Shown here: positions 13,787 through 43,292 of the stretch, one piece after another | Layout of the letters: every line of letters starts with the position of its first letter | Numbering within the stretch: the stretch's first letter is position 1 | From: Alistipes sp. | GTDB taxonomy: Bacteria > Bacteroidota > Bacteroidia > Bacteroidales > Rikenellaceae | Direction: 5' to 3' | DNA length: 43,454 nt | Assembly: GCA_017630735.1 (NCBI GenBank) | Contig: JAGBUS010000058.1 | Location: 1 to 43,454 of the forward strand | Position numbers and translations under genes: made by a program | The notes under the pieces: generated by a model | The model's input: only the letters and a program-made list of their open reading frames with translations | What the model was told of the DNA's origin: nothing | Databases searched by the model: none

Positions 13787-13792
13787 TATTCG

Positions 13793-15929: not shown

Positions 15930-15955
15930 TAATTTACTTTCAATTTACCACTATT

Positions 15956-15985: not shown

Positions 15986-16013
15986 CCGAATGAAGAAAAT
16001 AAAATAAAACAAT

Positions 16014-17012: not shown

Positions 17013-17023
17013 TAGTAAGAAAA

Positions 17024-18115: not shown

Positions 18116-18127
18116 AAAGTATAAACC

Positions 18128-21813: not shown

Positions 21814-21847
21814 TTTGACTTTTTTTGAAAATTTATTTATATCTTTG
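21814..21847 (+). promoter_or_regulatory. Predicted promoter of the kinase/FHA operon
   Basis: TATCTTTG (21840-21847) is an exact -7 box. TTTG at 21814-21817 lies 22 bp upstream, slightly long for the -33 element. Transcription would begin near 21854, giving a leader of only about 17 nt before the ATG at 21871. This rules out the GTG at 21847 as the start codon. Confidence 0.6.
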
Positions 21848-21870: not shown

Positions 21871-22701
21871 ATGAAGCGTTGTAATAATTGCGGTTGGTTC
21901 AACCTCGACTCTGTGACACATTGCGAAAAATGTGACGAGGAGTCTTTTGAAATGGTAGTAGAAACACCTCAGGAGAATAGCACTCCTGCGGAGGAGAAGG
22001 TGGCAGAGGTAGCGGTGAGCGAGCCTGAGCCTAAGGCTGAGTGTGTGGCTGTAGAGCCTGAGCAGCCTCAGCAGTGCTGTGAGGAGGTTAAGGAGCCAGA
22101 GCCTGCACCAGAGGTGAAGCCTAAGAACAACTTTGCAAATGCAACAGTAGCTTTCGGAAGTGCTGCCGCGCCTAAGGTGGAGGTGGTGTCAAAGCCTCAG
22201 AATCCAAAGGCGATGAAGGCAACGGTAATGGATGCTTCATCGGTATTGGAGAGCATGGCGTCTTCTGAGCCAGAGAAGCCAGCAGTGGCTGAAGCTCCTG
22301 TGGCAACGTCAAGCTGTCACAAGTGTCGCTATCCGATAAGCGGAAATGTGGAGTATTGCCCTAACTGCGGTGCTACAATACGTAATAACAACCCTCGTGC
22401 GACGGTGAGAACACAGCCTTTGCAGGGTGATATCAGTGCTACGGTATCTGAGCAGTCGGCGGGATTCGATCCTATGAAGACCGTGGCTCTCGGTGCTGAA
22501 GCTCCTGCAAAGCCACAGGCTCCAGCAGCGTCGTCGAGCAACCTTAAAGCTACGGTGCGTGATGTGCCTGAGGAGCTAATCGTGGATAACAAGGAGTGTT
22601 ACAAGTTGGTGCCTGTAGATGCTATTGGCGATCCTATCATCGAGCTAACGCTTGATACAGAGGTGGTTATTGCAGGACGTAGATATAAATTCCAGAAGTA
22701 A
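21871..22701 (+). CDS. Double zinc-ribbon protein with repeated Thr-Val motifs
   Basis: Cytoplasmic protein of 276 residues, first gene of the signalling operon. A GTG at 21847 is inside the predicted promoter, so the ATG at 21871 is chosen. Two four-Cys zinc ribbons are visible: CNNCGWFNLDSVTHCEKC (Cys4, 7, 18, 21) and CHKCRYPISGNVEYCPNC (Cys149, 152, 163, 166). The linkers are low-complexity Glu/Pro/Ala. They carry six Thr-Val motifs: ATVAFG (Thr92), ATVMDA (118), ATVRTQ (178), ATVSEQ (191), KTVALG (204) and ATVRDV (228). The C-terminus ends in a short beta-like IELTLDTEVVIAGRRYKFQK. I infer that these threonines are phosphorylation sites for the downstream kinase and dock the FHA domains, making this a scaffold. 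The stop overlaps the kinase start (TAATG). Confidence 0.8.
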   Translation: MKRCNNCGWFNLDSVTHCEKCDEESFEMVVETPQENSTPAEEKVAEVAVSEPEPKAECVAVEPEQPQQCCEEVKEPEPAPEVKPKNNFANATVAFGSAAAPKVEVVSKPQNPKAMKATVMDASSVLESMASSEPEKPAVAEAPVATSSCHKCRYPISGNVEYCPNCGATIRNNNPRATVRTQPLQGDISATVSEQSAGFDPMKTVALGAEAPAKPQAPAASSSNLKATVRDVPEELIVDNKECYKLVPVDAIGDPIIELTLDTEVVIAGRRYKFQK

Positions 22702-24065
22702 TGATACATTCGTCACACATAGATGCCACGGTAGTGCCAGGTAGATGCGACTGCAAGGCGGGTGATCTCGTTGCCTCGCGTTACATTGTGGAGAAGGCTC
22801 TTGGTGAGGGCTCGTTTGGTGTTGTTTACAAGGTGAAGGATAATGCTGGTAAGCCTTGGGCAATGAAGCTCCTACGTCTGTGGGATGTCCCTTCAACCAT
22901 ACGTCAGCCACTTATCAGCCGCTTCGAGATGGAGTATAAAACAAGTTGTATCAAGAGTAATAACCTTGTACACTCTGTCGATTTTGGCTATCTCAACGGC
23001 AATCCATATATCGTCATGGAGTTCTGTTCGGGCGGCGACCTTACAAAGATGATTGGCGCAAAGAACGTGGATTATGAGCGTATCGCATGTGATGTGTTGA
23101 ATGGTCTCCACGACTTACATATTAATGGTAAGGTGCATCGCGACCTTAAGCCCGAAAATGTGCTCTTCAAGGAGGATGGCACGGCTGTGCTCACCGACTT
23201 TGGTATCAGTGGCGATAGAAATAAGCGAATGACCGAGCGCAATATCTTTGGTCGTCCAACGCAAATATTTGGTACATATGCATATATGCCTCCAGAGCAG
23301 GTTAATCGCGCACGTGGTAATAGCACGGTGTTGCCAACAACTGACCTGTTCTCGTTTGGTGTGATGATGTATCAGATTTTGACCGGCGATTTGCCTTTCG
23401 GTAAGCTGGAGGATCAGAACGACTTGGTATATTATCAGAAGCGTGGTAAGGCAGGAGAGTGGGATAGAATGAAGCTCTTGTCGTTGCCTCATGCTAGAGC
23501 TTGGGATACTCTCATTTCACGTTGTTTGGTATCTGATTTTAAGAACCGCATCAGCTCAGCGCAGGACGCTATAGCATTGGTGCCACGTCAGAGCCAGCGA
23601 TTTGAGACCGTAGCCATGCCTTCAAGTGCACCACAAACGCCACAAAGTGCTGTTAATCAGCCTAATGTTCAGGGGCAGTCACCAACAACTCGCAAATCGC
23701 AGGATAAGTGCTTGCAGGTGATGCAGGGTAAGGAGTTCGGAAAGGTTTATAACCTCACAAAGCTTATCGCCGAGAGTGGACGTAGATTGTTGACTATCGG
23801 TCGTGGTGATGATAACTCAATCATGATTGCTGACTATGATGAGTCATACATGTCGCGTAAGCATTGCACCATCGAGAATTTGGGTGGCTCATATTGGCAA
23901 ATACGTGATGGTCAGTGGGATGGCGAGAGCGGAGCATGGCGAAACTCAACAAATGGCACCTATGTAAACTCCGAGGAGATAGCTGCAAATGGCAAGTTAC
24001 TTAATAATGGAGATATTATCACTATAGGTGACGTTAAGCTAAAATACGACTACGAAAACATTTAA
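22701..24065 (+). CDS. Hanks-type Ser/Thr protein kinase with C-terminal FHA domain
   Basis: Soluble kinase of 454 residues with no membrane segment. The kinase domain (about 27 to 295) has the Gly loop GEGSFGVVYKV (from residue 34), Lys56 in AMKLL, the catalytic loop HRDLKPENV (Asp148, Lys150, Asn153), DFG at 166 to 168 and an APE-like PPEQ. All key residues are present, and it is an RD kinase. A Gln/Ser/Pro-rich linker leads to an FHA domain (about 337 to 454) with Gly367-Arg368, the pThr-binding SRKH (385-388) and NGT (418-420). Thr-Val motifs occur at Thr10 (DATVVPG) and Thr303 (ETVAMPSS). A kinase covalently joined to its own phosphothreonine reader suggests self-assembly or substrate recruitment. 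It is translationally coupled to the zinc-ribbon gene. Confidence 0.95.
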   Translation: MIHSSHIDATVVPGRCDCKAGDLVASRYIVEKALGEGSFGVVYKVKDNAGKPWAMKLLRLWDVPSTIRQPLISRFEMEYKTSCIKSNNLVHSVDFGYLNGNPYIVMEFCSGGDLTKMIGAKNVDYERIACDVLNGLHDLHINGKVHRDLKPENVLFKEDGTAVLTDFGISGDRNKRMTERNIFGRPTQIFGTYAYMPPEQVNRARGNSTVLPTTDLFSFGVMMYQILTGDLPFGKLEDQNDLVYYQKRGKAGEWDRMKLLSLPHARAWDTLISRCLVSDFKNRISSAQDAIALVPRQSQRFETVAMPSSAPQTPQSAVNQPNVQGQSPTTRKSQDKCLQVMQGKEFGKVYNLTKLIAESGRRLLTIGRGDDNSIMIADYDESYMSRKHCTIENLGGSYWQIRDGQWDGESGAWRNSTNGTYVNSEEIAANGKLLNNGDIITIGDVKLKYDYENI

Positions 24066-24102
24066 TTTATAAACTTTAAAACTTTAACCAAAAACTATTT
24101 TT

Positions 24103-25065
24103 ATGGAGACAAACTACAAAAGAACCGTAGCTGGCTCGGTAGGAGCTGGTGTGGCAGCTGTCTTTAATGCTTCAGGTCGTCAGTACTATATCTTGGAGCA
24201 CAAGACTGAGTCTTTGTATCACCATGTTGGTGAGTCTCAGAAGATTATCGTTGACCAGGTAGAGTTGGGTCGTGACTCAGCTTGTCAGGTACGCTTCGAT
24301 GAGTCTTTCGAGACAGTTAGCCGTCGTCATGCGGCAATCGTTAAGGATGGTGAGAACTGGAAGATTATCCCTATCTCTCAGACTAACTCAACTCTTGTTA
24401 ATGGTCAGCCTATCGTTGCTGAGCAGCTCTTGAATTCTGGTGATGAGATTCGCCTCTCTTCTAAGGGCCCTCTTATGGGCTTCATCATTCCACAGGGCAA
24501 GCAGAGCTTGGTAAGCAGCATCGGTATGACTGAGCGTCTTAGCCTCTTCCGTCAGCAGGCACTCCGTCCATATAAGCGCGGTTTGTGGGCTTTGGCTATT
24601 ATTCTTATTCTTGCAGTTGCAGGTCTTGTAGCTTGGAACTTGTGGCAGGCAGATAAGTTCTCTAAGGTTCTTGATGAGAAGCAGGCTCAGATTGAGCAGG
24701 TTCAGGAGGATCTTACAGCAAGCGATGAGCTTATCAATGAGCTTAGCGATGAGTTGGTTAAGGCTCAGAACGCTTCAGCAGCTGAGCGCGCACGCGTAAA
24801 GCAGCGTTTGGAGGAGGCTCAGGCAGAGCGTGATGCATTGCTCCAGGAGGCTGAAAACCTTAAGCATGACCTTGACAATGCAAGAATTCAGGCAGAAGCT
24901 GCAGGTGAAGATGTTGTGAATGCTAATGCAAGAATTGATGCTCTTCAGCAGAAGCTTGAGAATGTAGAAGAAAAGCAGGAGACAAAACCTCAGCCAGTAA
25001 ATGATAAGGATGATATTAGCAACTTCATTAAGAAGGATGCTAAGAAGCCTGTAATCAAGAAATAA
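24103..25065 (+). CDS. FHA domain / transmembrane / coiled-coil protein
   Basis: Single-pass membrane protein of 320 residues. The N-terminal cytoplasmic FHA domain (about 30 to 130) shows LGRDSACQV (Gly56-Arg57), SRRH (73-76) and Asn95 in TNSTLVNG, the residues that bind phosphothreonine. One transmembrane segment, GLWALAIILILAVAGLVAW, lies at about 160 to 180. A long charged coiled coil (about 183 to 295: EKQAQIEQVQEDL, AERARVKQRLEEAQAERDAL) is followed by a Lys-rich tail. A Thr-Val motif lies at the very N-terminus (YKRTVAGS, Thr8). With one crossing, the coiled coil should sit in the periplasm, so this could link cytoplasmic phosphorylation to envelope partners. It resembles Fha-type adaptors of secretion systems in role only. 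Confidence 0.9.
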   Translation: METNYKRTVAGSVGAGVAAVFNASGRQYYILEHKTESLYHHVGESQKIIVDQVELGRDSACQVRFDESFETVSRRHAAIVKDGENWKIIPISQTNSTLVNGQPIVAEQLLNSGDEIRLSSKGPLMGFIIPQGKQSLVSSIGMTERLSLFRQQALRPYKRGLWALAIILILAVAGLVAWNLWQADKFSKVLDEKQAQIEQVQEDLTASDELINELSDELVKAQNASAAERARVKQRLEEAQAERDALLQEAENLKHDLDNARIQAEAAGEDVVNANARIDALQQKLENVEEKQETKPQPVNDKDDISNFIKKDAKKPVIKK

Positions 25066-25104
25066 GACTAAAATTATAACTTAAACTTTTAAATTATTAT
25101 TACT

Positions 25105-25527
25105 ATGAAACGTTTTACAGCTATTTTGGTTGCATTGGTTGCAATGTTCACATTTGCAGGTGAGGCTAATGCTCAGTCACGCAATGATGTAGTTATTCCT
25201 TACGAGCACCTCTCTTTGGATGCTTCTTTCAAGCAGTTTAAGAAGGCAAGCAAGGTTAACCAGATTGAGATTCTTACATACCTTGTTTCTCGCGCAAATG
25301 AGGAGTATCTTAAGTGCACAACACTTGATGATTTGTATACAGTAAAGGAGAACTTGGAGACTATTAAGTTCTACAACCGTTACGCTAAGCAGGCATCTAT
25401 CGCTGTTGCTAATGCTATTCGTAAGCTCGATCGTGATATTATTCAGACTGAGGCTGAGATTAAGGGTATTTCTCACATTGATAGAGGTACTTCAGCTTCA
25501 TACATCGATCGTGGTCAGGAAGAATAA
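25105..25527 (+). CDS. Small exported protein, tandem paralogue 1
   Basis: Exported protein of 140 residues with type I signal MKRFTAILVALVAMFTFAGE...ANA, cleaved before Gln24. The mature part opens RNDVVIPYEHLSLDASFKQF and is helical. NQIEILTYL and VKENLETIKFYN are shared with the next gene, and the end is YIDRGQEE. It carries no recognised domain. It is the first of three neighbouring paralogues that differ in how they are held in the envelope: this one has no lipobox. It lies 39 nt after the FHA-coiled-coil gene, and a strong hairpin follows. Confidence 0.75.
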   Translation: MKRFTAILVALVAMFTFAGEANAQSRNDVVIPYEHLSLDASFKQFKKASKVNQIEILTYLVSRANEEYLKCTTLDDLYTVKENLETIKFYNRYAKQASIAVANAIRKLDRDIIQTEAEIKGISHIDRGTSASYIDRGQEE

Positions 25528-25548
25528 TTAATCATTCTATAACCTGCT

Positions 25549-25578
25549 ATAGGACTGCCCAATAAAGGGCAGTCCTAT
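25549..25578 (+). promoter_or_regulatory. Perfect 12-bp hairpin between paralogues 1 and 2
   Basis: ATAGGACTGCCC (25549-25560) and its exact complement at 25567-25578 surround the loop AATAAA. The run after it is TAATAGCATTGC, not a U-tract, so full termination is unlikely. RNA processing or partial attenuation inside the operon is inferred. Confidence 0.75.
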
Positions 25579-25630
25579 TAATAGCATTGCACTACTAATA
25601 AATAATAAATTTCGTATAGGATCACGTAGT

Positions 25631-26047
25631 ATGAAACGTATTATCCCAATTATAATCTCCGTAATGGTCATTATGTTATCGTCGTGTGCTAACATGATGT
25701 GTAATAATGATGTGATTATATCATACAATGCACTCTCGCTAGATTCCTCTTATAAACAGTTTAAGAAGGCTTGTAAGGCTAATCAAATTGAGATTCTTCG
25801 TTATCTTTTGGATTGTGCAGAAGAAGAATTTGATGAGCAATCAAATCTTAAAGAGTTACTTAGAGTAAAAGAGAATATGCGAATAATTAAGTTTTATAAT
25901 AGTAAGGCTAAACAGAATTCTATTTATATAACAAACGTTATTCGTGAATTGAGTACTGATATTTTGGAAGAGGAGGCAAAATATAGAGGTGTATCTTCCG
26001 TAGAAGGCGAATTACCTCAATATGTTGATAAAGGTCAGGATGAATAA
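25631..26047 (+). CDS. Small lipoprotein, tandem paralogue 2
   Basis: Protein of 138 residues, clearly a duplicate of the gene at 25105. NDVIISYNALSLDSSYKQFKK corresponds to NDVVIPYEHLSLDASFKQFKK, and NQIEILRYL, VKENMRIIKFYN and the ending YVDKGQDE also match. The signal has become a lipoprotein signal, VIMLSSC (Cys19), so this copy is predicted to be membrane-tethered while paralogue 1 is free. Base composition is more AT-rich than in paralogue 1, suggesting lower expression or faster drift. Function unknown. Confidence 0.75.
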   Translation: MKRIIPIIISVMVIMLSSCANMMCNNDVIISYNALSLDSSYKQFKKACKANQIEILRYLLDCAEEEFDEQSNLKELLRVKENMRIIKFYNSKAKQNSIYITNVIRELSTDILEEEAKYRGVSSVEGELPQYVDKGQDE

Positions 26048-26088
26048 TTAGGATAGATACCAAATATTTTATATATAAGATAATTACT

Positions 26089-26514
26089 ATGAAACAGTTA
26101 AGACTCTTTTTAGCTCCATTTGTTGCTTTAATCATTACATCATGCGGTGTTAATGCTCAGACAACTAACCCTCAGGACCAGTTAATGAACGATGTCGTTA
26201 TATCATGGGATCAAATGATGTTAACAGCATCTCTTAACAAATTTATGAATGCAACAGGAACAAATCAAGATGAAATCCTTAGATTCTTGATTAATGAGGG
26301 CTACAATGAGATGAAACAGATAAACAGAATTAGCTCTGAGGAGGATAAAGAAGATGCTTTGTTGGAGTTTAATCGTAAACTGAAATACCTAAAACGATAT
26401 TTTGAGGCATCTCGTAATAAGAATACATACGTGCTATATGATTTGGATACGCTCATGGAGAAATTCAATCTCTTAGTTGGTAATAATCCCGTCTATGTGG
26501 TGTCTCCGTTATAA
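26089..26514 (+). CDS. Small lipoprotein, tandem paralogue 3 (diverged)
   Basis: Protein of 141 residues with lipobox ITSC (Cys19); VNA-Gln a few residues later would also fit a type I site. It keeps the family framework NDVVISWDQM, NQDEILRFL and a long helical middle (LEFNRKLKYLKRYF). The C-terminus is different and lacks the Asp-Lys/Arg-Gly-Gln ending of the other two. It is the most diverged of the three. The following spacer holds another perfect hairpin before the phosphatase gene. Confidence 0.68.
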   Translation: MKQLRLFLAPFVALIITSCGVNAQTTNPQDQLMNDVVISWDQMMLTASLNKFMNATGTNQDEILRFLINEGYNEMKQINRISSEEDKEDALLEFNRKLKYLKRYFEASRNKNTYVLYDLDTLMEKFNLLVGNNPVYVVSPL

Positions 26515-26546
26515 CATATATATATAATAGAAAATAATAACTCATA

Positions 26547-26577
26547 ATTGTGAGGGAGATAAATGCTCCCTCACAAT
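26547..26577 (+). promoter_or_regulatory. Perfect 12-bp hairpin upstream of the PP2C gene
   Basis: ATTGTGAGGGAG (26547-26558) pairs exactly with 26566-26577 around a 7-nt loop. A GTG within it (26550) would give a longer reading frame for the phosphatase, but the hairpin and the following AT-rich gap support the ATG at 26604. No U-run follows. Confidence 0.75.
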
Positions 26578-26603
26578 ATAAATTATATACAATAATAAAT
26601 TTT

Positions 26604-27731
26604 ATGTCTGACGTTACCTTTAAAATGACCGTTGCGACGAATGTTGGTTTAGTGCGCAGCAACAACGAGGATAATTTTATTGTGTGTCCTAACCTAGATC
26701 AAGCTGACAATTGGTTCGCTCCACGCTCTTCAGACGAGGTTATCTCGCTTGGAGAGTTCGGTTGTGTTATGGTCGTAGCTGATGGTATGGGCGGAATGAA
26801 TGCTGGTGAGGTAGCATCCGAGATTGCCGTAAATACAATAAAAGAGCAGTATTCGGTAGTTAAAGACTTCTCAAAAATCGCCGATTGTAGCAACCATATC
26901 GAGGCCTTCATGAAGAAAATTATCGTTGAGGCCGATAAGCAGATTAAAAAGAGGGTAAAGGAAGACCCCTCAACGCAGGGCATGGGAACGACTATCGTCA
27001 TGGCTTGGATAGTTGAGGATGTTGCACATATTGCATGGTGTGGTGATTCACGTGCATATCTGTTTAATCGACAGTCGGGACTAAGTCGTTTGAGTAACGA
27101 CCACTCTTATGTCCAGGAGTTAGTGGATTCTGGTAAGTTGGATCCTGAGTTGGCTTTCGACCATCCTAATAGTAATATCATTACTCGTAGTCTGGGTGAT
27201 TCTCCAGTTAAGGCTCAGCCAGATTATGTATGTAGACGTTTGTCAGTAGGCGATTTTGTTATGTTGTGTACTGATGGTCTTTGTGGATTGTGTCGTGATG
27301 AGGAGATTATGGAGGTCCTCAATAGAGATTATCCATCGTTGGAAGATTATAGAAACCAACTAATTAATGCAGCATTTGAGGCTGGAGGTTATGACAATGT
27401 TACCATTGCAATCTTGGAGTGCTTGAAGGTTAAGGAGACATCTTTGGCAAATACGGTAGCTCCAACACAAATGTTTAAGAAGGCAAAGGTAGAGAAGGTT
27501 GAGAAGACACCAGAACCTAAGGAAAATGACGCAGCAGTATCTGAGGAGAATGTTGATAATAACACAGATGTTGCTCCAGAACCAAAGAAGAAACGACACG
27601 TCGGATTGTGGATTGTAATAATCATTCTGTTATTATTGATTGCAGCAGCTGTTGCAGCATACTACTTTGGTATAATAACAATCGACGACGCAAATAATAT
27701 TAAGTTTAACCTGAACTCAATCTCATTGTGA
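26604..27731 (+). CDS. PP2C-family Ser/Thr phosphatase with C-terminal membrane anchor
   Basis: Metal-dependent protein phosphatase of 375 residues, expected to reverse the kinases on either side. Conserved PP2C elements are present: RSNNEDNF, VVADGMGGMNAGE (Asp60, Gly61), GTTIVMAWI, CGDSRAYL (Asp148), LCTDGL (Asp224) and GGYDNVTIAIL (Asp264), which together supply the Mn/Mg ligands. After the catalytic domain (about 1 to 275) come the Thr-Val motif NTVAPTQM (Thr284), a Glu/Val/Pro linker and one transmembrane helix (LWIVIIILLLLIAAAVAAYYF, about 335 to 355), so the enzyme faces the cytoplasm as a tail-anchored protein. The ATG at 26604 is preferred because the upstream GTG option runs through a hairpin. 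The next kinase begins 1 nt after its stop. Confidence 0.95.
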   Translation: MSDVTFKMTVATNVGLVRSNNEDNFIVCPNLDQADNWFAPRSSDEVISLGEFGCVMVVADGMGGMNAGEVASEIAVNTIKEQYSVVKDFSKIADCSNHIEAFMKKIIVEADKQIKKRVKEDPSTQGMGTTIVMAWIVEDVAHIAWCGDSRAYLFNRQSGLSRLSNDHSYVQELVDSGKLDPELAFDHPNSNIITRSLGDSPVKAQPDYVCRRLSVGDFVMLCTDGLCGLCRDEEIMEVLNRDYPSLEDYRNQLINAAFEAGGYDNVTIAILECLKVKETSLANTVAPTQMFKKAKVEKVEKTPEPKENDAAVSEENVDNNTDVAPEPKKKRHVGLWIVIIILLLLIAAAVAAYYFGIITIDDANNIKFNLNSISL

Positions 27732-27732
27732 T

Positions 27733-28863
27733 ATGAAATATTCTGAAGGATACTTGTTAGATAACCGATATCAGTTTGAACGATATATCGGAAGTGGTAC
27801 GTTTGGTGAAGTGTGGGTGGCTGTGGATAAAGCCACTGATCTTGAGGTAGCAATCAAGGTGTATATCTCAATGGACGAGACTGGTTTCCAGGAGTTTAAA
27901 AAGGAGTTCCAGATATCATTTGAGCTTAATCATTCAAATTTGCTACATGCTAATTATCTTGGTGTTAATGCAGATGATAAGCGTCCATATTTGGTAATGC
28001 CATTCTGCCCTAATGGCTCAGTATCAAGCCATATAGGTAGCATGAGTGAGGCAGACTTGTGGCGTTTTATTCGTGACGTGGCATCAGGTCTTGCATATCT
28101 TCACTCTAAGAATCCTCCAATCATTCACCAGGATATTAAGCCAGATAATATCTTGATTCTAAGAAATGGAGATTTTGTAATCACCGACTTCGGTATCAGT
28201 AAGCAGTTGCGAGCAACGCTTAGAAAGAGTGCGAAGAGCCTCAACTCTGCAGGTGCGATATCATATATGGGACCTGAGAGATTTAGCAAGCAGTATCAGG
28301 CTGTTAAGGCGAGTGATGTTTGGTCTATGGGTGCATCTATCTTTGAGCTTGCAACTGGTGAGTTGCCATTCTGTGGTATGGGTGGTAGCCTCTTGAAGCA
28401 GGGTGCAGATATGCCAGAGTTGCCAGAGGAGTATTCTGAGACACTCAATATGGTATGTCAGGCATGTATGACAAAGGAAACATGGAATCGTCCTACAGCT
28501 CAGCAGATTGCAGATTTTGCAACAAAGTATATTAATGGTGAAAATCCTACACCTACATGGGTAAAGTCGACTGAAGTAGCTCAGCCTACTCAGGCAGCAC
28601 CTGCGGTTGAGGAGAAGAAGCCAGAGCCTACGCCAGAGCCCGCACCTGCACCTACACCAGAGCCAGCGAAGAACAAGCGTGGTAATATGAATATGACAGT
28701 GGTAGCGTCGCAAAATGTGGAGCCAAACGTTGAGACTCCAGCAGCTATGCCACGATTTATATCATCGCAGGAGGAGCAAAAGAGCAATATTCCTGCTTGG
28801 GTATGGATTGTTGTTGGATTGGCAGGCGTGCTATCAGGATTCGTAATCAACTATATTATGTAG
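27733..28863 (+). CDS. Membrane-anchored Ser/Thr protein kinase (non-RD type)
   Basis: Kinase of 376 residues. Gly loop GSGTFGEVW (residue 20), Lys42 in VAIKV, catalytic loop HQDIKPDN (His132, Asp134, Lys136, Asn139), DFG (152-154) and GPERF in place of APE. The Arg of HRD is replaced by Gln, so this is a non-RD kinase, a class often not dependent on activation-loop phosphorylation; the upstream kinase is RD. A Pro-Glu-rich linker (EKKPEPTPEPAPAPTPEPA) and a Thr-Val motif (MTVVAS, Thr322) precede a C-terminal transmembrane helix WVWIVVGLAGVLSGFVINYIM with almost nothing beyond it, so there is no periplasmic sensor domain. Topology matches the adjacent phosphatase. Confidence 0.94.
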   Translation: MKYSEGYLLDNRYQFERYIGSGTFGEVWVAVDKATDLEVAIKVYISMDETGFQEFKKEFQISFELNHSNLLHANYLGVNADDKRPYLVMPFCPNGSVSSHIGSMSEADLWRFIRDVASGLAYLHSKNPPIIHQDIKPDNILILRNGDFVITDFGISKQLRATLRKSAKSLNSAGAISYMGPERFSKQYQAVKASDVWSMGASIFELATGELPFCGMGGSLLKQGADMPELPEEYSETLNMVCQACMTKETWNRPTAQQIADFATKYINGENPTPTWVKSTEVAQPTQAAPAVEEKKPEPTPEPAPAPTPEPAKNKRGNMNMTVVASQNVEPNVETPAAMPRFISSQEEQKSNIPAWVWIVVGLAGVLSGFVINYIM

Positions 28864-28867
28864 TAAG

Positions 28868-30448: not shown

Positions 30449-30454
30449 TAGATT

Positions 30455-31171: not shown

Positions 31172-31176
31172 TAGTT

Positions 31177-31791: not shown

Positions 31792-31818
31792 TTAGGATAA
31801 TAAAATAAAAATATAATT

Positions 31819-34233: not shown

Positions 34234-34248
34234 TCTATAAAAACCGAA

Positions 34249-35124: not shown

Positions 35125-36710
35125 GATTCTTTAATATATTGAAAAACGACTATATTCGCCTGTTTATCAAGCGCGAAAGTAGGGTTGTGTTGGGTAACAA
35201 AAACTCAACATTGTGGCTACTTACAGTCGTCCTTACGGTAACATTCCTTGCTATTGCATTTAGTAATGCCAGCTTGAGCTACCTATCATACAAGATGGAT
35301 GATCCATTTATTAACTGGGTAGATATTAAGAATGAGCATGATAGTGATTTTTCATCATTTGAGATGGCTTTGGACGCTGATGCTAATAAGGAGGCATATC
35401 ATTATCGTGGTTATCAGTATGATTATCACTATACAATGATGTTCTATGGTCCAGATGATACGAAGCTTCAATATCTGAAGTGTCGTTTCTTCCAAAACCT
35501 TAATACACCACTTGTAGAGGCTATTCTTAGTGATGATAATGTTGTAAAGAATTGGCGAGTAGCAGATTTGTCGCAGCTTGATGTCAATAGCATCGGTGTT
35601 ATTATGACAGAGGAGGCTATGTCAAAGTTGGGCTTCACTAATGCTCCATCATATATCGATTTGCAGATTGGTGCATACGATAGTTATGGTTATGTAGATG
35701 CTTCTGAATATGGTTTTGATATTCATAACGAAGAGTATGTACGAGTTCCTATTCCTGTTCTTGCGATAGTTAATCGTTTGCCAGGTAATGTGGATATGGT
35801 ATCTACTGCATATCTATTTAAGCAGCGATGGAATGATAATACATATCCTTTTATCTTGGGTACTCATTCGGAGTATGCCGAGAAGTTGTGCTACTTTGTA
35901 CCATCGGACTTGAATACAGAATCATTGCAAAATAAGGTAAACACTATTGCTGAGGAGTATGCTGTGTCGTTGGACTACGATGATAGTAGCTTCTACCTTC
36001 CTGAGATTACCCCATTCCGTGAGGGTCGCTTCATTATCATTGATAGCTATGATGGCTTGAGCTATCAGGATTGGGCTGCTATTAATAAGCGTCTGTTGGA
36101 TGAGTATGGTGGTCAGGGTCTATATCGTGTATATGAATATGACTTTAGCGAATATACAATCAATGAGAAGGCTTATTTATCAGTTCATTTTGATGATCTT
36201 GATAAGTTGGGTGATTTTGAGACCTATGTACGTGAGACATTCAATGTAAAGATAGATATGACCCAGATAAACGCTAAGGAGAACTTCAATGCTGTAAGTA
36301 CTATGGGTAATATCCTCTCGGCATTGATCATTGTTTTTGCTATTATTTGTATCATTCTCTTTATTGTTAACCTTTTGAAGTCTTACTTCCAGAAGATTAA
36401 GCGTAATTTGGGTACATTCAAGGCATTTGGTATCAGTAACCGTGACCTTATCAGTGTATATGTGCTTATTATGGCTGGTATTGTTATCTCTGCAATTGTG
36501 GTATCTGTATCGGCTACATGGTTTGTGCAGGGCGCATTGCATATTTGTGGTGTCCTTAAGGATGGTGTTTTCGATTACCTATCGTTGTGGAGCTTCAAGA
36601 CAGTATGTTCTATTTTTGTGATCATCGTTGCTGCGATATTCACAGTTTATATTGTTATGAAGGATTTGTTGAAGGCAACACCTGGAGACTTGATTTATGA
36701 CAGACAATAA
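35121..36710 (+). CDS. FtsX/MacB-type ABC permease
   Basis: Inner-membrane protein of 529 residues with the MacB/LolC layout. There is one N-terminal helix (LWLLTVVLTVTFLAIAF, about 31 to 48), a periplasmic domain of about 340 residues, then three C-terminal helices (LSALIIVFAIICIILFIVNLL; VYVLIMAGIVISAIVVSVSATWFV; CSIFVIIVAAIFTVYIV). The cytoplasmic loop LKSYFQKIKRNLGTFKAFGIS after the second helix is the coupling region typical of the FtsX family. It pairs with the overlapping ATPase gene. In known relatives this type moves lipoproteins, extrudes from the periplasm, or sends a conformational signal; the adjacent lipoprotein gene makes the first or third plausible. Confidence 0.93.
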   Translation: MRFFNILKNDYIRLFIKRESRVVLGNKNSTLWLLTVVLTVTFLAIAFSNASLSYLSYKMDDPFINWVDIKNEHDSDFSSFEMALDADANKEAYHYRGYQYDYHYTMMFYGPDDTKLQYLKCRFFQNLNTPLVEAILSDDNVVKNWRVADLSQLDVNSIGVIMTEEAMSKLGFTNAPSYIDLQIGAYDSYGYVDASEYGFDIHNEEYVRVPIPVLAIVNRLPGNVDMVSTAYLFKQRWNDNTYPFILGTHSEYAEKLCYFVPSDLNTESLQNKVNTIAEEYAVSLDYDDSSFYLPEITPFREGRFIIIDSYDGLSYQDWAAINKRLLDEYGGQGLYRVYEYDFSEYTINEKAYLSVHFDDLDKLGDFETYVRETFNVKIDMTQINAKENFNAVSTMGNILSALIIVFAIICIILFIVNLLKSYFQKIKRNLGTFKAFGISNRDLISVYVLIMAGIVISAIVVSVSATWFVQGALHICGVLKDGVFDYLSLWSFKTVCSIFVIIVAAIFTVYIVMKDLLKATPGDLIYDRQ

Positions 36711-36725
36711 ATTCATTGTAGGAAT

Positions 36726-39700
36726 ATGAAAAATATTGTAAAAATATTAATATCTCTATTCGCCTGTGTAGCGTTGCTATCGTGTGATAACGATGAGCAA
36801 AAGCAATACGAGGGTAGTAATGATGGCTACCTCCCTATTACAGATATGGCTATTCATCCATTGGGTGATGAGGTGAATGTATCATTCATCTCAGAGTCAG
36901 CTTGGAAAATAGAGGGTGTAAAAGAATGGATGAGTGTAAAAGTAAATGGTACTTCTAATAATAAAGGTTCGTCTGGTACGTCAAGCTTAGTTTTTACAAT
37001 TAACCCATTCTATGCTGATAAGGATGAGCCAGAGCGAAAGAGTGTAGTAACCTTTAGAAATAGTTCTACTAATGAGGTTATAGACTCGTTCACAATCACG
37101 CAGAAGCCAGCTTATGTAGATGTTACCATTACCAACCCTACAAATGATGCAATCTTATTTAGTTGGCATAATGCAGAAAAACCTGAGAATGTAAATGGTT
37201 TTACTGTAGATTCTTCTATTGAGTGTAAGATTACATATACCAATAGTGAAGATTTTAATGTTGACAGTGAAGATTCATACTTTGGTAAGGCATCGGAAGC
37301 AAATTCTACTCCATTTGTTGTAAAGCCAAGTGATTATAACTTCAATATACAATCTAACGAATGTACAATTACTATTGAGCCAATAAAGCGAAATGCAAAT
37401 GGCGTAGAGGTTTCGTTGAGTTCTGATATAATTGATAACCTAAAGAAAAGTATATCAGTATCTCAGGATTTCTTGATATTTACTGTTCTTGAGGGCTCTA
37501 TTGATGATATTAAAAATAGTCTAAGTCTCGATAGGATTCTTAATAAGACTCTCAATTTGACTGATTTTAGTGAGCTTGGCTACAACTATTTGGTAGCTAA
37601 CGATTTGGAAACAAGTGGTGCTACTAAAACTATCGTAATTGCTGCTGAGACGGATAACGCCGATTATGGAGATTTTATCTGTGATCCTGCTTATAGAGAG
37701 AAATATGAATTTCAACAGGTAAAAGTTAGACATGGTGAAAAAATATCTGGTAGAAATGTTACTCTAACGCAGTATGAGGTACGTGTTTTAAAGCCAAATG
37801 CACTTAAAACACAATATGAGATACCTGTAGAGCTACCATTGGAGGATTATGATGATAGAACAGAAGCTGTATTGAGTTTCAATCTTGTACAGAAGCCATA
37901 CGTGTTTGATATTAAGCGCGATGGTAATGATGTTGGGGCTTCAAATGGCTATCATCATACATTTAACAATCATGGTGACGAGTCAGTAACTTATACTCTT
38001 AATACAACAGGTCCATGGACGCTCACTGACTATGCTAAGGAGTGGTTGAGCAGTGAGGAGATTACGTTTGAGGATGGTAAGGATTCAGGTGCTGGCGTTT
38101 TCGAGTTTACGCTTACTGCCGAGAATCAGAATTTGTCGTTCGAGGATGTTGATGCAAGTTTATTGTTTACATCAGGTGACTTTGATGGAGATTTGGATAC
38201 TCCTCACACTGCATCGTTGAACGTTAAGCAGGCAGCCTTTGAATTTGCTATCAATACCCTTGGTAAGGATGGTAATGAGACTCCTAATTTATTGCTTACA
38301 AGTTCTAATACAAAGAGTCATACGTATGACATTAAATGTTCAGGTCCTTGGACGTTTGAGGTCTTGGATAATAGTGAAAACTGGCTCTCAGTAGAGACTG
38401 ATTCGGGCGAATATGAGGGTGATGGTAATGGTAACTTAACAGTACAGGCATCGGCAAATGAGGATGATGATGCTCGCTCTGTAAGAATCAAGTTGATAAG
38501 TACATTACATCGTGATGCCGACTACACTGAGGAGGAGTATTCTCGTATAGCTACAATTACACAGGATCAGTTATCCTGTGAACTCCTTGATGCTGAGGGT
38601 GGAGAGACATATACTGGATGGAGCGATATCCCTGCATATATACAAGGTGATTCTAAATCGAAGTTCTATGTTAAGTGTTCAACGCCATGGAAGATTGAAT
38701 CATATCCAAGTTGGATGACGCTACAATCAAGTACGAACGGTGTTACAATTAGCTCTAATTCCATTAGTGGTGATGGTTTAGAATATGCAACTATTAATGT
38801 CACTATTTATAATAATCCTGATAAGGAGGTTCGCAACGAAACTATTCGTATCAAGGCGGATATTGATGGTGATGGCAACTATGATGGTGTAAAAGACCGC
38901 GAGTTACCGTTTACTATCTCTCAGGACGAACTCGTTTTTGAGCTTGTTACAGCTGATGCAACAACATTTTATTCGTATGCTCCAATTAATGAAGAGTCAG
39001 CAAAGAGTATTACTGTAAAAGCGACTAAGGGCTTAGTATTGGATGTGAACAATAGTGCTATATCTAATAACTGGACAGGTTGGGCTTATGATAGTAAGTC
39101 TTATCCAGATAGTAAGACTAAAACTGTTACTTATAAATTAGACCCTGAGCACAATTTAAACATTAATACTGAGCCTCGTACAGCGACAATCAGTGTTTCA
39201 AATACATTTACTTCTGAGGCTTATACAATTAATGTTACGCAGGAAGCATTTAAATTTTCTGTAGATAATGAGTCTCTTGACAATTTTGATGAGGTAAATG
39301 CTTCTGTTAAGAGAATAACCGTAGAAGAGTGTACGGGAAATTACTATGATGTAAAGATTGAGAATGGTAATTGGATGAAAGATCCTGCTCAAATTGGTTC
39401 TCAGTGGAAATTTGAGCCTGCAAGTGATAATATTAGTACAACTCCAAGAACTGCTGATATCAAGTTCGTGGTTAACCATCCTGCGGCAAATGGCATAGAG
39501 CTTTTGTCTATACCAGTTAAGCAGAATGCTTATGTGTGGGAGGTAAGTAACCCTACGAAAACAGCTATGCCAACACTTGGTGATGATGTTACTATTAGTG
39601 TTAAATCAAGTGGTAGTTGGAAGATCGAGGCCCCAAATGGTGTTACGCCATCGAAAAAAAATGGAGCAGGAGGAAAAGGTGGAGTAGAGACTTCTGTAAC

Positions 39701-40145
39701 TCTTAAATTTGAGCCAAACTATGAAGAGTCTCCAATTAATAATATTCAGGTAAAGGTCGTATGTAATGATAATAGTGATTGGCAAAAAACTATGACATTT
39801 ACGCAAGAGGCATATAAGTTTGAGGTAAATGATGGCAACAGCGTTGTTGGCTCTTCTGGTTACGAAAAGAATATTGTATGCGAGGGTGAAACCTTTGAAA
39901 TTAATGTTGAGTGTTCAGATCCAACTAAGTGGGATGTTGAATATGATAAGAGTGCAACATGGATTGAAGCAAAGAAGAGTGGCAATAATAAACTTGTTGT
40001 TACCGTTGACCCAAATAAGGGTAGCAAGGGTACTGATGCTACTGAGGAGCGTAGAGTTAAACTCAAGGTTAAGACTACGGATGATTCTAAGTTAACAAGA
40101 GAAATTAATGTTATTCAGGAAGGATATACTCCTTCTGCATCATAA
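36726..40145 (+). CDS. Large lipoprotein made of about ten BACON-like repeats
   Basis: Surface or periplasmic lipoprotein of 1139 residues; lipobox ALLSC (Cys20). The rest is a string of Ig-like domains of about 110 residues whose boundaries are marked by a strand ending in [VI]xQ followed by a new opening strand: TITQKPAY, SVSQDFLIF, NLVQKPYVF, NVKQAAFEF, TITQDQLSC, TISQDELVF, NVTQEAFKF, PVKQNAYVW, TFTQEAYKF and the final NVIQEGY. Several units carry a W near the centre (GPWTL, GPWTF, TPWKI, GSWKI), as in BACON domains. The family is associated with glycan or mucin contact and with spacing in Bacteroidetes surface proteins. It lies 15 nt after the permease, so it may be that transporter's client or its outer-membrane partner. 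Confidence 0.85.
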   Translation: MKNIVKILISLFACVALLSCDNDEQKQYEGSNDGYLPITDMAIHPLGDEVNVSFISESAWKIEGVKEWMSVKVNGTSNNKGSSGTSSLVFTINPFYADKDEPERKSVVTFRNSSTNEVIDSFTITQKPAYVDVTITNPTNDAILFSWHNAEKPENVNGFTVDSSIECKITYTNSEDFNVDSEDSYFGKASEANSTPFVVKPSDYNFNIQSNECTITIEPIKRNANGVEVSLSSDIIDNLKKSISVSQDFLIFTVLEGSIDDIKNSLSLDRILNKTLNLTDFSELGYNYLVANDLETSGATKTIVIAAETDNADYGDFICDPAYREKYEFQQVKVRHGEKISGRNVTLTQYEVRVLKPNALKTQYEIPVELPLEDYDDRTEAVLSFNLVQKPYVFDIKRDGNDVGASNGYHHTFNNHGDESVTYTLNTTGPWTLTDYAKEWLSSEEITFEDGKDSGAGVFEFTLTAENQNLSFEDVDASLLFTSGDFDGDLDTPHTASLNVKQAAFEFAINTLGKDGNETPNLLLTSSNTKSHTYDIKCSGPWTFEVLDNSENWLSVETDSGEYEGDGNGNLTVQASANEDDDARSVRIKLISTLHRDADYTEEEYSRIATITQDQLSCELLDAEGGETYTGWSDIPAYIQGDSKSKFYVKCSTPWKIESYPSWMTLQSSTNGVTISSNSISGDGLEYATINVTIYNNPDKEVRNETIRIKADIDGDGNYDGVKDRELPFTISQDELVFELVTADATTFYSYAPINEESAKSITVKATKGLVLDVNNSAISNNWTGWAYDSKSYPDSKTKTVTYKLDPEHNLNINTEPRTATISVSNTFTSEAYTINVTQEAFKFSVDNESLDNFDEVNASVKRITVEECTGNYYDVKIENGNWMKDPAQIGSQWKFEPASDNISTTPRTADIKFVVNHPAANGIELLSIPVKQNAYVWEVSNPTKTAMPTLGDDVTISVKSSGSWKIEAPNGVTPSKKNGAGGKGGVETSVTLKFEPNYEESPINNIQVKVVCNDNSDWQKTMTFTQEAYKFEVNDGNSVVGSSGYEKNIVCEGETFEINVECSDPTKWDVEYDKSATWIEAKKSGNNKLVVTVDPNKGSKGTDATEERRVKLKVKTTDDSKLTREINVIQEGYTPSAS

Positions 40146-40163
40146 CATATTAATTGTAATAAT

Positions 40164-43100
40164 ATGAAGTTAAGTAGATTAGTTATACTAATTGCGTTAT
40201 TCTCTGGCATTGCCTTTAGTGCTAATGCACAAAGTGAACCCGTTGAGCCTCCAAAGATGCGAGAGCTCAAGGGTGAGGAACTTCAAGGCACGCTCAAACC
40301 CCTTCAAAATAAGAAGGGGTTGTGGGGTTATGTCAACTCGGAGGATAAGTTTGTAATAAAGCCTCAGTTCGAGGATGCAAAACCATACGAGGGTAATGTC
40401 GCTCAGGTTCGTTTCAATGGTAAGTGTGGTATTATAGGTCGTAATGGTCTATATATACTCCCGCCTACCTATATGGAGTCGTTGGGCGAGTTCTCATCAG
40501 ACAGTGTTGCAATATTTAGAGTGCAGCATAAATATGGTTTGGTCGATACCAAAGGACGTTTTGTCCAGAGCGTAAAGTATGACGACATACAGCCAAAGAG
40601 CTTCGGTTACTTAGCATGTATTAACTTGAAGTATAGTACCATTGACAAGAAGGGTAATATAATTTGTGATAAGAAGTTCGATAGCGTCAGTTCGTTGAAT
40701 GAGGATGAGTCGTTGGATCATGTCTTCATGGAGCGTAAGTGGGATATCATCAAGAACGGTAAGGATGTTATTACCCATGGCTGGGATAAGCAGTTGCAAC
40801 TACTTTATGATATGGGTGGCGATAGCCCAGACCTCTATTTGGTAAGTAGAAGAAACCTATATGGTGTTGTAGCCTCTGATGGCAAGCAGGTAGCTCCGGT
40901 ATATTACGATGCTATTGAGTTGCATGAGTCTGGCAATTACTTTATTACTGTACGTAATGGTAAGTATGGCGCAATATCGTTGAGAATGTCGGAGATCGTA
41001 CCTCCGATTTTGGATGAGAAGCCTGTTATTGAGGATAAGATGTATCGTGTATATGATGGGTTTAATTTCTGGTGCGCAAATGTCTATGGTCGCTTAGAAT
41101 TCCGTGTATGTGCTGATGTATATAGCGCGAGAAAGCCTGCTGAGTATGTCACTACTACGGAATACCCTGAGTGGGCAAAACTCGATATTATAGAGAGTAA
41201 TCTTGAGGAGTATACATCATCGCAGTATAATGCGCGTACTATATACAATGTCATGGTGGAGCGTTCATACAATATGGATTATATCAAGCATGATCCTCGC
41301 TTGCCAAAGGATGTGGAGCTTACGTTCCCTTCAAATGATGTTACAAAATATGGAGTTCTTTCGGGTCACAGCTTCATCGTTGGTGGCGGTAAGATACATA
41401 TTAGTGAGACAGATTATTTGCAAATAGCTATGAAGTCAACTAATATGCCTGTATACTTAGCATCTGACCAGTCAGGTGATAAATACTACTTCTATTACGA
41501 TAATAAGTTGGTATCGTTGAATGATGCGTTGGATAAGTTTAATGTGAAGAGCTGTCCATCGTTGTATCCAAAGGACTGTGTGCTAATGCCTGATGGTAAG
41601 TTGTTGGTGCGTATCGCCTTTGTGAGATCAAAGGATGAGGCGAATATGAGTTTGATTGAGACTGAGGCGTATAACCTTCCTGTCTCTAATGCACATATCT
41701 CGCTATTCACAGGCACACCAAATAGCGCAGTAGAGACGTATGGCTTGTTGACGATGGATATTGCTAATTCTTCAGTTCTGTCTTTTGCTCAGTTACCTGC
41801 TGATATGGGTAATATCATAGCCTCTACGTTTGGTGGCTTCTATGGTAGAACATCGCAGAGTGTCGTGGCTGATACCTCAAATCCATTGACTTGCTATGAC
41901 CGAAATGGTAATTTGGAGTGGATATTCCGAGCTCATGCTAATGAGGTATTGGTAGATATCGACGAGACGGAGAACTATATATACCTTGGCGGATATACCA
42001 AGGATGGTAATGTTGAGCATCCGTTGCTGATTCAGTTGGATAAGTTGGGTAATCGTGCCGAGACAATCATAATGAGTGATAAAACGTCGCGCTTCTCTGC
42101 TATTAAATGTGCTAATCATCTTATCTACGCAAAGTTGGGTGGCAATAGCGAATCGTTCTATCCTCACTTTATCTTAGAGGACTTGGGCGATAATATGTAT
42201 GTCCGTCCATGTTGTGTTTGGGAAGATTGGGGTGGTAAGCATATCGGTGGATGTGGACTCATCGCAGAGAACGGTAAGTGGATCCAGAGCCCAATATTGG
42301 AGGGTGAGCAGATGGGTGATGAGATGTTGTATGATTGGGAGTTTGGAAGCTTCAGTAACGACTATCTTATTATCCGTAAGAGTGGTAAATATGGTATCAT
42401 TAACCGTGCTGGCGATATGCTCGTTAAGCCTAAGTATGAGCAGTTGGAGCAGCTTGAAAATCCTAACTACTTCAGAGTGTTGGTAGATGGTATGTATGGT
42501 GTTATCGATGCTACAGGTCGCATAATCGTGCCTGCTGAGTATAATTATATCGGACGCATGAGCGAGGATATGATTGTTGCTAAGCGTGGTCGCGACTATG
42601 GATGTTTCGATGCTAATGGAACTAATGTCGTGCCTTTTGAGTTCTTGGAGATTAAGGAGTATGTTGGAGGTATGGCACGTATTCAGGGTCGTAATGGTCG
42701 TTATGGCTTTATCGATAAAAATGGCTCTGACCTTGTTCTAACAATGTTTGACTCTGTGGAGTACTATTCTGAGGACCTTGCTTTGGTAACAGCTATGGGT
42801 GCTGTTGGTTTCGTAGATATGCAGGGTAATTGGGTTGTACGACCTATATATGATAATGGTCGCTCATTCTCATGTGGATTGGCCCCTGTGTGCTCGAAGA
42901 ATAAGTGGGGTTATATTGATAAGTCTGGCGATGAGAAGATCGCATTGAAATTCGATAGTGCAGAGGAGTTTAATAAAGAGTATAAGATTGCACGTGTATC
43001 GAAAGGTGGTAAGTGGGGCGTTATCAATGATAAGGGTACAGACATAGTTCCAATATCATTTGATGAGGTCATTATATGTGCCGATGGTTATATCTATGTT

Positions 43101-43292
43101 AAGCGAGGCGATAAGTGTGGTGTCTACTCATCTAAGGGCGATATTGTATGCCCTGTTGAGTGTGATGACAGAGGTCTCTATAACTCAAAGAGCATCATGT
43201 TTAAGCATGGTATAGCTAAGGTTATGCTAAACGGTCATAGTGTTAAATTGGATTCGTTTGGTAATATAATTTCACTATATACCGATAAATAA
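40164..43292 (+). CDS. Exported WG-repeat protein with central propeller-like region
   Basis: Last gene of the operon, 1042 residues; type I signal MKLSRLVILIALFSGIAFSANA before Gln23. WG-type beta-hairpin repeats (G-[KLM]-[WY]-G-[YVI]-[IV]-[DN]...G...[IV]-P...[FY]) occur in two blocks. About six lie between residues 45 and 290 (KGLWGYVNSEDKFVIKPQF, GKCGIIGRNG, HKYGLVDTKG, NLYGVVASDG, GKYGAIS). About eight lie between 745 and 1030 (GKYGIINRAG, GMYGVIDATG, RDYGCFDANG, GRYGFIDKNG, GAVGFVDMQG, NKWGYIDKSG, GKWGVINDKG, DKCGVYSSKG). The middle (about 300 to 740) contains propeller-like strands such as YIYLGGYTKDGNVEHPLLIQLD. WG repeats are thought to be protein-binding; the partner is unknown. It lies 18 nt after the BACON lipoprotein. 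Confidence 0.88.
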   Translation: MKLSRLVILIALFSGIAFSANAQSEPVEPPKMRELKGEELQGTLKPLQNKKGLWGYVNSEDKFVIKPQFEDAKPYEGNVAQVRFNGKCGIIGRNGLYILPPTYMESLGEFSSDSVAIFRVQHKYGLVDTKGRFVQSVKYDDIQPKSFGYLACINLKYSTIDKKGNIICDKKFDSVSSLNEDESLDHVFMERKWDIIKNGKDVITHGWDKQLQLLYDMGGDSPDLYLVSRRNLYGVVASDGKQVAPVYYDAIELHESGNYFITVRNGKYGAISLRMSEIVPPILDEKPVIEDKMYRVYDGFNFWCANVYGRLEFRVCADVYSARKPAEYVTTTEYPEWAKLDIIESNLEEYTSSQYNARTIYNVMVERSYNMDYIKHDPRLPKDVELTFPSNDVTKYGVLSGHSFIVGGGKIHISETDYLQIAMKSTNMPVYLASDQSGDKYYFYYDNKLVSLNDALDKFNVKSCPSLYPKDCVLMPDGKLLVRIAFVRSKDEANMSLIETEAYNLPVSNAHISLFTGTPNSAVETYGLLTMDIANSSVLSFAQLPADMGNIIASTFGGFYGRTSQSVVADTSNPLTCYDRNGNLEWIFRAHANEVLVDIDETENYIYLGGYTKDGNVEHPLLIQLDKLGNRAETIIMSDKTSRFSAIKCANHLIYAKLGGNSESFYPHFILEDLGDNMYVRPCCVWEDWGGKHIGGCGLIAENGKWIQSPILEGEQMGDEMLYDWEFGSFSNDYLIIRKSGKYGIINRAGDMLVKPKYEQLEQLENPNYFRVLVDGMYGVIDATGRIIVPAEYNYIGRMSEDMIVAKRGRDYGCFDANGTNVVPFEFLEIKEYVGGMARIQGRNGRYGFIDKNGSDLVLTMFDSVEYYSEDLALVTAMGAVGFVDMQGNWVVRPIYDNGRSFSCGLAPVCSKNKWGYIDKSGDEKIALKFDSAEEFNKEYKIARVSKGGKWGVINDKGTDIVPISFDEVIICADGYIYVKRGDKCGVYSSKGDIVCPVECDDRGLYNSKSIMFKHGIAKVMLNGHSVKLDSFGNIISLYTDK

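Follow-up and report, generated by a model that had tools for sequence, protein, structure and literature searches.

The membrane complex of the Bacteroidota type VI secretion system (T6SS), T6SSiii, contains TssR, one of five proteins (TssNQOPR) required for its function in Bacteroides fragilis, where TssR interacts with TssP, TssN and TssO, according to the available portion of that study (PMC10781749). In the H1-T6SS of Pseudomonas aeruginosa, an outer-membrane lipoprotein, a periplasmic protein, an ATP-binding cassette (ABC) pair and a kinase (TagQRST and PpkA) respond to outer-membrane damage, as stated in the accessible part of the source (PMC11881912). Here, we describe an operon of Alistipes sp. 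(GenBank assembly GCA_017630735.1, contig JAGBUS010000058.1) that encodes a predicted TssR relative within a conserved envelope cassette, together with kinases, a phosphatase and FHA domains, and whose carriers mostly show neither of the two T6SS markers searched for. The window analyzed, 43,454 nucleotides, is one whole contig of a genome of 1.85 Mb that is 80% complete.

The operon comprises 16 genes, all on the + strand, spanning 21847-43292. Its first in-frame ATG lies at 21871, the start also used in the original prediction, an earlier reading of this DNA made without database searches. Directly before this ATG stands a promoter match (TTTG-N22-TATCTTTG, 21814-21847, + strand) to a consensus that we take to be of Bacteroidota type; the pattern has four matches in the window, two of them within genes, against a mean of 0.88 in shuffled sequences. 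Gaps range from -4 to 27 bases downstream of the PP2C phosphatase gene and from -1 to 103 among the genes before it. Pfam recognises in the operon two Ser/Thr kinases, two FHA domains, a PP2C phosphatase, a VWA protein, an ABC ATPase, an FtsX permease, and BACON-repeat and WG-repeat proteins. Pfam and gap analysis thus agree with the tightly spaced operon of kinases, FHA, PP2C, VWA, ABC/FtsX and exported proteins that had been proposed.

The VWA protein (31819-34233, + strand) had been regarded as the VWA domain of a PpkA-type kinase, detached from the kinase. This idea was ruled out, since three TssR models of Pfam match above cut-off: TssR_VWA at 53.7 bits (cut-off 25.7), the TssR N-terminal barrel at 40.6 and TssR_C at 39.1. 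The protein has the N-terminal barrel, a VWA domain with intact metal-site motifs (DGTKSM and VGDCGN) and the C-terminal domain, and no lipobox. Nine aligned TssR-like members, one of them truncated, match TssR_VWA in 9/9 cases, TssR_C in 7/9 and the barrel in 7/9 (E up to 0.001), and TssR of T6SS loci matches the profile of the gut TssR-like proteins at 100% (E 6.8e-61, 743 columns). By these profile matches, the protein is assigned to the TssR family, the membrane-complex subunit family of the Bacteroidota T6SSiii. A search for a solved TssR structure found none (best E 0.056). The likeness to the described TssNQOPR complex, as presented in the available portion of the source, lies in the three-domain layout and in a transmembrane (TM)-anchored protein encoded just upstream (PMC10781749).

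Five further genes, all on the + strand, complete the envelope core. The exported protein e526 (28868-30448) has no Pfam match in its window copy; among 20 aligned members of its family, 7 match OMP_b-brl and 4 match OMP_b-brl_2 (E<=0.1), and e526 is probably an outer-membrane beta-barrel. Next come e238 (30455-31171), with an N-terminal membrane anchor, a probable periplasmic domain and a position and TM layout like those of TssP, and the exported protein e204 (31177-31791), whose profile matches the small gene preceding TssR in distant loci; neither has a Pfam match. The TssR-like gene is followed by an ABC ATPase of the LolD/MacB/FtsE class (34249-35124; ABC_tran 72.9 bits, cut-off 25; Walker A, signature and Walker B visible) and by an FtsX-type permease (35121-36710; FtsX 33.4 bits, cut-off 25.5). 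The permease has four TM-like segments, at 29, 398, 443 and 495, the first two separated by about 350 residues.

A scan of the genome collection yielded 31 loci, 22 of them close to the window operon (L033-L054); counts for the close loci rest on profile matches inside a span of about 10 kb and include near copies such as L037/L038 and L036/L041. The barrel, e238, e204 and TssR-like genes occur in this order on one strand in 22/22 close loci, and the ABC ATPase and FtsX genes follow collinearly in 19/22. The exceptions are L033 and L049, cut by contig ends, and L043, in which all six core genes are present but rearranged, the ABC pair lying inverted next to an additional TssR-like gene. An extra e238 was seen in L048, L051 and L054, and an extra TssR copy in L045. 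The operon is therefore real and conserved as a unit, as had been anticipated, with a collinear core found more often than chance would give. A Ser/Thr kinase match accompanies the core in 21/22 close loci (weak in L051), PP2C in 19/22 and FHA in 18/22, and all kinase and PP2C matches share the strand of the TssR-like gene.

Within the genus, the TssR-like gene was found in 8/180 genomes including the source genome, and in 1/70 high-quality genomes; the cassette is an accessory, patchy element. This distribution bears on a reading of the system as an FtsEX-like regulator of cell-wall remodelling whose kinases link growth to envelope state. The permease does carry an FtsX domain and, like those of MacB, LolCDE and FtsEX, four TM-like segments, the ATPase resembles the FtsE model (117.9 bits, under its cut-off of 264.85), and Hanks kinases often act on wall synthesis. 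However, the ATPase falls under the cut-offs of the LolD, MacB and YbbA models as well (for the LolD equivalog, 138 bits against 307.75), the pair differs from MacB/LolCDE/FtsEX in its fixed neighbourhood of TssR-like, e204, e238 and barrel genes, the window scans revealed neither a hydrolase nor an EnvC-like gene, and an accessory system fits poorly with such a role. We consider this reading improbable.

The original prediction had also proposed that the system stands apart from any T6SS, noting no TssB, TssC, Hcp or VgrG gene in the window. In the window itself, Pfam scans of 30 reading frames recovered no Hcp, VgrG or baseplate gene; the genome-wide searches covered TssC and TssN only. These searches took in 31 carriers, namely the source genome and the 30 genomes behind L033-L062; L063, a weak and Myxococcales-labelled locus, was left out. 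The source and same-genus genomes are 77 to 91% complete. The sheath protein TssC (PF17541) was detected in 1/31 carriers (G165), with no match in the source genome, at its 80% completeness, nor in five same-genus carriers. In the positive control G109, PF17541 matched at 2.5e-224, about 9 kb from its TssR; the VipB model PF05943 was dropped as sheath marker in favour of PF17541, since it missed this control too. The membrane hub TssN (PF17555) was found in 0/31 carriers, and was found in G109, G506, G425 and G549. In G165, a Prevotella-labelled metagenome-assembled genome, TssC lies on a contig of 39641 bases and the cassette on a separate one of 46374 bases, and no TssN match accompanies TssC; the TssN model can thus overlook divergent forms. 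Each single absence is weak evidence, but the joint absence of TssC and TssN in 30/31 carriers is strong, and the separation from T6SS holds for most carriers.

Two further differences from T6SSiii are that the TssR-like protein keeps the metal-site motif of its VWA domain and that, in the window, it has no lipobox. Reading the alignment by eye, we found the DxTxS-type motif and the later GD intact in 24/26 rows of the gut clade and 10/10 rows of L055-L062, as against 0/6 rows of L097-L102 and 0/10 T6SS rows, that is, in 34/42 non-T6SS rows versus 0/10 T6SS rows. The intact motif of the cassette TssR would fit ligand binding, and its absence in T6SS a structural role there. The motif does not split ABC-linked from T6SS TssR, given that the ABC-linked L097-L102 lack it. 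As a separate observation, two or three TssR-like genes stand in tandem or close together in L033, L045, L057, L059 and L043, one L043 copy being without the motif.

In a tree of 52 TssR sequences, the nine rows labelled as T6SS form one group (100/100), which L096, a locus described below, joins (100/97). The label was given to rows that come from genomes with TssC and that have TssQ/O/P-type neighbours, although TssC lies far from TssR in G470 and G200. The tree excludes L063, the L059 copy of 492 residues, the G146 rows, which share a contig with L059, and the second, truncated TssR-like copy found in the source genome. Rooted at its midpoint, the otherwise unrooted tree, in which long branches are flagged, places the T6SS group inside non-T6SS TssR proteins that are mostly ABC-linked; this would tentatively mean that T6SSiii recruited the module.

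More distant relatives extend the cassette. Of 395 Bacteroidia genomes scanned for TssR, 52 matched, mostly through short VWA-region matches that were not counted; near full-length matches outside the source genome numbered seven (L096-L102). Together with L055-L062, these loci show variants of a barrel-type gene, a TM-anchored gene, a gene of about 200 codons, a TssR-like gene and ABC and FtsX genes, though not all slots are recognisable everywhere (for example in L057, L059 and L100). ATPase and permease are fused in L098, L099 and L102 (827 to 864 residues), and also in L097 and L062, cut by a contig end. With L096 excluded, the distant barrel matches gut e526 at 99.1% (E 9.8e-19), and the small pre-TssR gene matches gut e204 at 97.3% (E 2.4e-11). 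Of the genomes behind L096-L102, G242, G380, G497 and G447 have neither TssC nor TssN, and G506, G425 and G549 have both.

The TM-anchored proteins of L097-L099 match nine T6SS TssP proteins at 99.7% (E 3.1e-25), and their C-terminal 110 residues alone do so at 90.1% (E 1.6e-6); an earlier comparison that included L096 gave 99.9% (E 5e-33). Two other PKD-repeat proteins, used as controls, match the TssP profile as well (6e-26 and 8e-28), over the PKD region only. Since the match of the L097-L099 proteins extends beyond the PKD domains, we assign them by homology to TssP, noting that two of these genomes have a T6SS. The case of e238 is less firm. It resembles TssP in lying one gene away from TssR, in having one N-terminal TM segment and in similar size, and it matches the combined L097-L099 and T6SS TssP set, without L096, at E 4.6e-4 (32.9%, 154 columns), with unrelated controls at 0.1 to 0.4. 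A match at E 5e-5 depended on L096, and e238 was lowered from a probable to a possible divergent TssP counterpart. A short hhalign match (95.5%) between two L055/L056 proteins and the N-terminal part of e238 was rejected, as it spans 33 columns with 2 rows.

The L096 locus connects both systems. On contig C100 of G506, TssN (74308-75123) is followed by a 383-codon gene, TssQ-like and TssO-like genes (2e-22 and 3e-18), a gene for a 1560-residue protein, a barrel homologue, TssP, a small gene, TssR and a PAAR-like gene (identified by eye). Its TssP matches the T6SS TssP profile at 1.6e-69. For its barrel and small gene, profiles that exclude L096 give 7.6e-32 and 1.3e-24, respectively, in place of the very strong scores obtained with L096 included; the small gene reaches gut e204 via intermediates, the direct match having only E 0.004. 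No ABC pair lies within 20 kb, and the TssC of G506 is on another contig. By these profile matches, L096 qualifies as a T6SSiii membrane-complex locus in which the slots for barrel and small gene are both occupied, bridging both systems. This suggests that the two genes go together with TssP-TssR and that a barrel partner exists in some T6SSiii. The likeness between cassette and T6SSiii goes beyond TssR: three distant ABC-linked loci carry a TssP homologue, and L096 joins TssQ/O-like genes, barrel, TssP, small gene and TssR.

TssR homology and the L096 bridge could also be taken to mean that the cassette is a decaying T6SSiii that has lost its sheath genes. We disfavour this account and regard it as very improbable. 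The ABC pair, which the cassette adds to the T6SSiii parts, is constant there, and the retrieved stretches of the T6SS-type loci L103-L110 and G109 showed none; gene order has been kept over wide divergence; the window protein retains the metal-site motif that the ten T6SS forms lack; and a single carrier has TssC. There is a reasonable chance that the cassette type is a separate machine family. In its broader form, which we consider possible though somewhat doubtful, this hypothesis holds that a T6SS-independent trans-envelope machine (barrel, TssP-like, e204, TssR-like and ABC/FtsX proteins) is widespread and undescribed in Bacteroidota, that T6SSiii took its TssP-TssR outer part from it, and that gut Bacteroidales coupled the machine to a kinase/PP2C/FHA relay as an envelope or contact sensor.

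This relay, which the gut form has in addition to the T6SSiii parts, is encoded at the start of the operon (all on the + strand). The zinc-ribbon-like protein uZn (21871-22701; zinc-ribbon Pfam matches under cut-off; orthologues in L033, L034, L039 and L053) precedes kinase 1, which ends in an FHA domain (22701-24065; Pkinase 140.8 bits, FHA 54.6 bits; HRD and DFG motifs visible). An FHA protein with one TM helix (24103-25065; FHA 54.7 bits; TM 160-178) has weak coiled-coil-like matches in its C-terminal part. After three small genes come the PP2C phosphatase (26550-27731; 54.4 bits; TM 351-369) and kinase 2 (27733-28863; Pkinase 156.7 bits; TM 357-375), each with a C-terminal TM anchor. The operon proteins display motifs that we take to mark active kinases, ATPase, PP2C and FHA. 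The three small genes (25105-26514) encode tandem paralogues of 140, 138 and 141 residues with signal-like N termini and no Pfam family at cut-off, whose profiles match each other; similar single genes occur in L033, L034 and L039. In a dipeptide test, from which L038, L041, L046, L049 and L052 were excluded as near copies or cut, five uZn orthologues together had 26 TV dipeptides against 7.3 expected, and uZn could be a multi-site phospho-acceptor through these motifs. The TV motif as an FHA docking code is doubtful, since a BACON surface-protein control is enriched likewise.

The window-like layout, with zinc-ribbon protein and kinase 1 first, occurs in L033, L034, L039 and L053. Many other close loci begin with an FHA protein, in some a kinase, then PP2C, an FHA-TM protein and a protein matching the FHA-protease profile, a profile found in 13/22 close loci. 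The L038 copy of the latter (L038:2851-4299), the one copy scanned, carries a pair of FHA domains together with one TM segment and a protease domain of trypsin-like type. Several close loci encode an FHA protein with membrane segments after BACON; in L035 (17323-18000, downstream of BACON), an FHA domain is fused to a DUF805 membrane domain.

The original prediction had likened this set to the threonine-phosphorylation cassette of the Pseudomonas T6SS. The part classes are indeed shared: an ABC ATPase with its permease, proteins of the periplasm and the outer membrane, a kinase, PP2C and FHA, as far as the accessible part of the source describes them (PMC11881912), and a VWA domain, which the original prediction places on PpkA. 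Homology points elsewhere, to the TssR of T6SSiii. In the cassette, the VWA domain is on a TssR-family protein and not on a kinase; kinase 1 carries an FHA domain and no TM helix, and kinase 2 ends at its TM helix, so neither has a periplasmic VWA of its own. The cassette FHA proteins score 33.1 and 23.4 bits with the T6SS Fha model TIGR03354 (cut-off 120.25), the ABC/FtsX pair is shared at class level only, and most carriers have no T6SS to fire. The resemblance to TagQRST-PpkA-PppA-Fha1 is thus best seen as an analogy at the level of part classes only.

Two kinases beside a PP2C also recall the kinase-kinase-phosphatase (KKP) module (PMC11341870, as represented by its abstract), and a mobile defence module of this kind would account for the patchy distribution. 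In addition, the kinase domains match the PD-T4-6 and mad6 models of PADLOC. These matches, however, look like the common kinase fold, and the ATPase match to mad3 covers part of the model only. The KKP abstract names no envelope part (PMC11341870), and in the cassette it is the envelope core, not the kinases, that is most constant. A search with the TssR-like protein, not with the kinases, gave no match in plasmid, phage (50,697 records) or viral-contig collections. We therefore find a defence module quite improbable.

Kinase 2, PP2C and the second FHA protein have one TM helix each and no large periplasmic sensor; therefore, a partner must supply the signal. The conserved membrane-spanning candidates for passing it are FtsX and e238. 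Our preferred hypothesis, to which we give not quite an even chance, is a trans-envelope sensor built around the T6SSiii TssR relative that feeds a threonine-phosphorylation/FHA relay. In this model, the e526 barrel and the surface lipoprotein would sample the outer membrane or outside contact; the TssR-like protein and e204 in the periplasm, with membrane-anchored e238, would link the barrel to the FtsX/ATPase pair; and this pair would act as a mechanical transducer that alters the state in which kinase and PP2C, both anchored in the membrane, are found. FHA proteins and, in relatives, FHA-linked effectors would then be recruited by threonine phosphorylation. We favour this chain because kinase 2 and PP2C have almost nothing outside the membrane; the contacts, the direction of the signal and the part played by the ABC pair are what we infer. 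The envelope-to-cytoplasm system originally proposed thus keeps its T6SS-free outline, and its phospho-signalling would be as modelled here.

Several observations weigh against the sensor hypothesis. Kinases occur in 1/8 of L055-L062 (L060, with PP2C and FHA too; several of these contigs are short) and are absent from L096-L102 over the parts retrieved, and therefore phosphorylation is not the core's only job. In G425 and G549 (L097, L098, L113 and L114), the sole near full-length TssR found adjoins the fused ABC/FtsX gene, with the sheath gene on another contig, and the ABC-linked TssR may serve the T6SS there. The homology of e238 to TssP is weak: with T6SS TssP alone it goes undetected (0.7%), and with L097-L099 alone only the TM stretch matches (E 0.004). 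The repeated TV motif of uZn is not specific either, as the BACON control shows.

The same kinase-free cores favour the main rival, in which FtsX/ATPase, TssR-like, e238, e204 and barrel proteins form a machine that exports or assembles a substrate, be it the BACON lipoprotein or some other protein of the surface, with the kinase/PP2C/FHA set acting as no more than a gate. In combining an outer-membrane barrel and periplasmic parts with an ATPase of the MacB/LolD class, the core is reminiscent of a tripartite exporter. Large surface-type proteins adjoin it, with a BACON profile in 14/22 close loci; in L045 and L054, the gene between kinase and barrel encodes a large protein that has a type IX sorting tail. 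However, type IX tails or signal-like N termini are already present on these adjoining proteins, the Pfam scans of the window picked up nothing of MacA or TolC type, and FtsX-type pairs that purely transmit a signal or force are also known. We rate export as unlikely, though a serious alternative to the trans-envelope sensor.

The two last genes of the operon encode the large BACON-repeat protein (36726-40145, + strand; BACON 74.7 bits), a probable surface lipoprotein, and an exported WG-repeat protein (40164-43292, + strand; WG_beta_rep 214.2 bits). Both have signal-like N-terminal segments. Of the large lipoprotein first proposed, the BACON protein and its signal-like N terminus stand, and the lipoprotein site (LLSC) is probable, a simple lipobox pattern having no match there. 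WG and BACON proteins, described at the time as added parts, are present in the window, but across loci the WG genes, and partly the BACON genes, are variable accessories; the WG gene is a same-strand neighbour in L034, L039 and L053 of the 22 close loci.

Outside the operon, the source genome holds a second, partial cassette on contig C3 (L028), with e526, e238, e204 and TssR-like genes and its ends cut by the contig. Upstream in the window lies a fimbrial-type cluster (3429-21559) of DUF3575/BACON, DUF5119, seven fimbrillin-like (Mfa_like_1) genes and a DUF4906 protein. It is preceded by a second promoter match (3159-3189), and because each has its own match, operon and cluster look like separate units. 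At 3-1957 on the - strand lies a pyridine nucleotide-disulphide reductase with a thioredoxin domain, presumably AhpF-like, with a 188-codon gene adjoining, a chromosomal-type flank.

In the open-access literature, as covered by titles and the beginnings of abstracts (subscription papers and preprints aside), we found no T6SS-free TssR system. The T6SS membrane-complex study of Bacteroidota, in its available portion, did not find TssR in 31% of systems and leaves the roles of the TssR VWA domain and the TssP PKD domains to future work (PMC10781749). A TssR relative that is mostly T6SS-free, keeps its metal-site motif and comes with an ABC pair and an outer-membrane barrel as partner offers a simpler setting for TssR function. 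For annotation, it is a warning that TssR by itself does not prove a T6SS. Finally, gut Bacteroidales gain a candidate threonine-phosphorylation relay with a defined envelope input.

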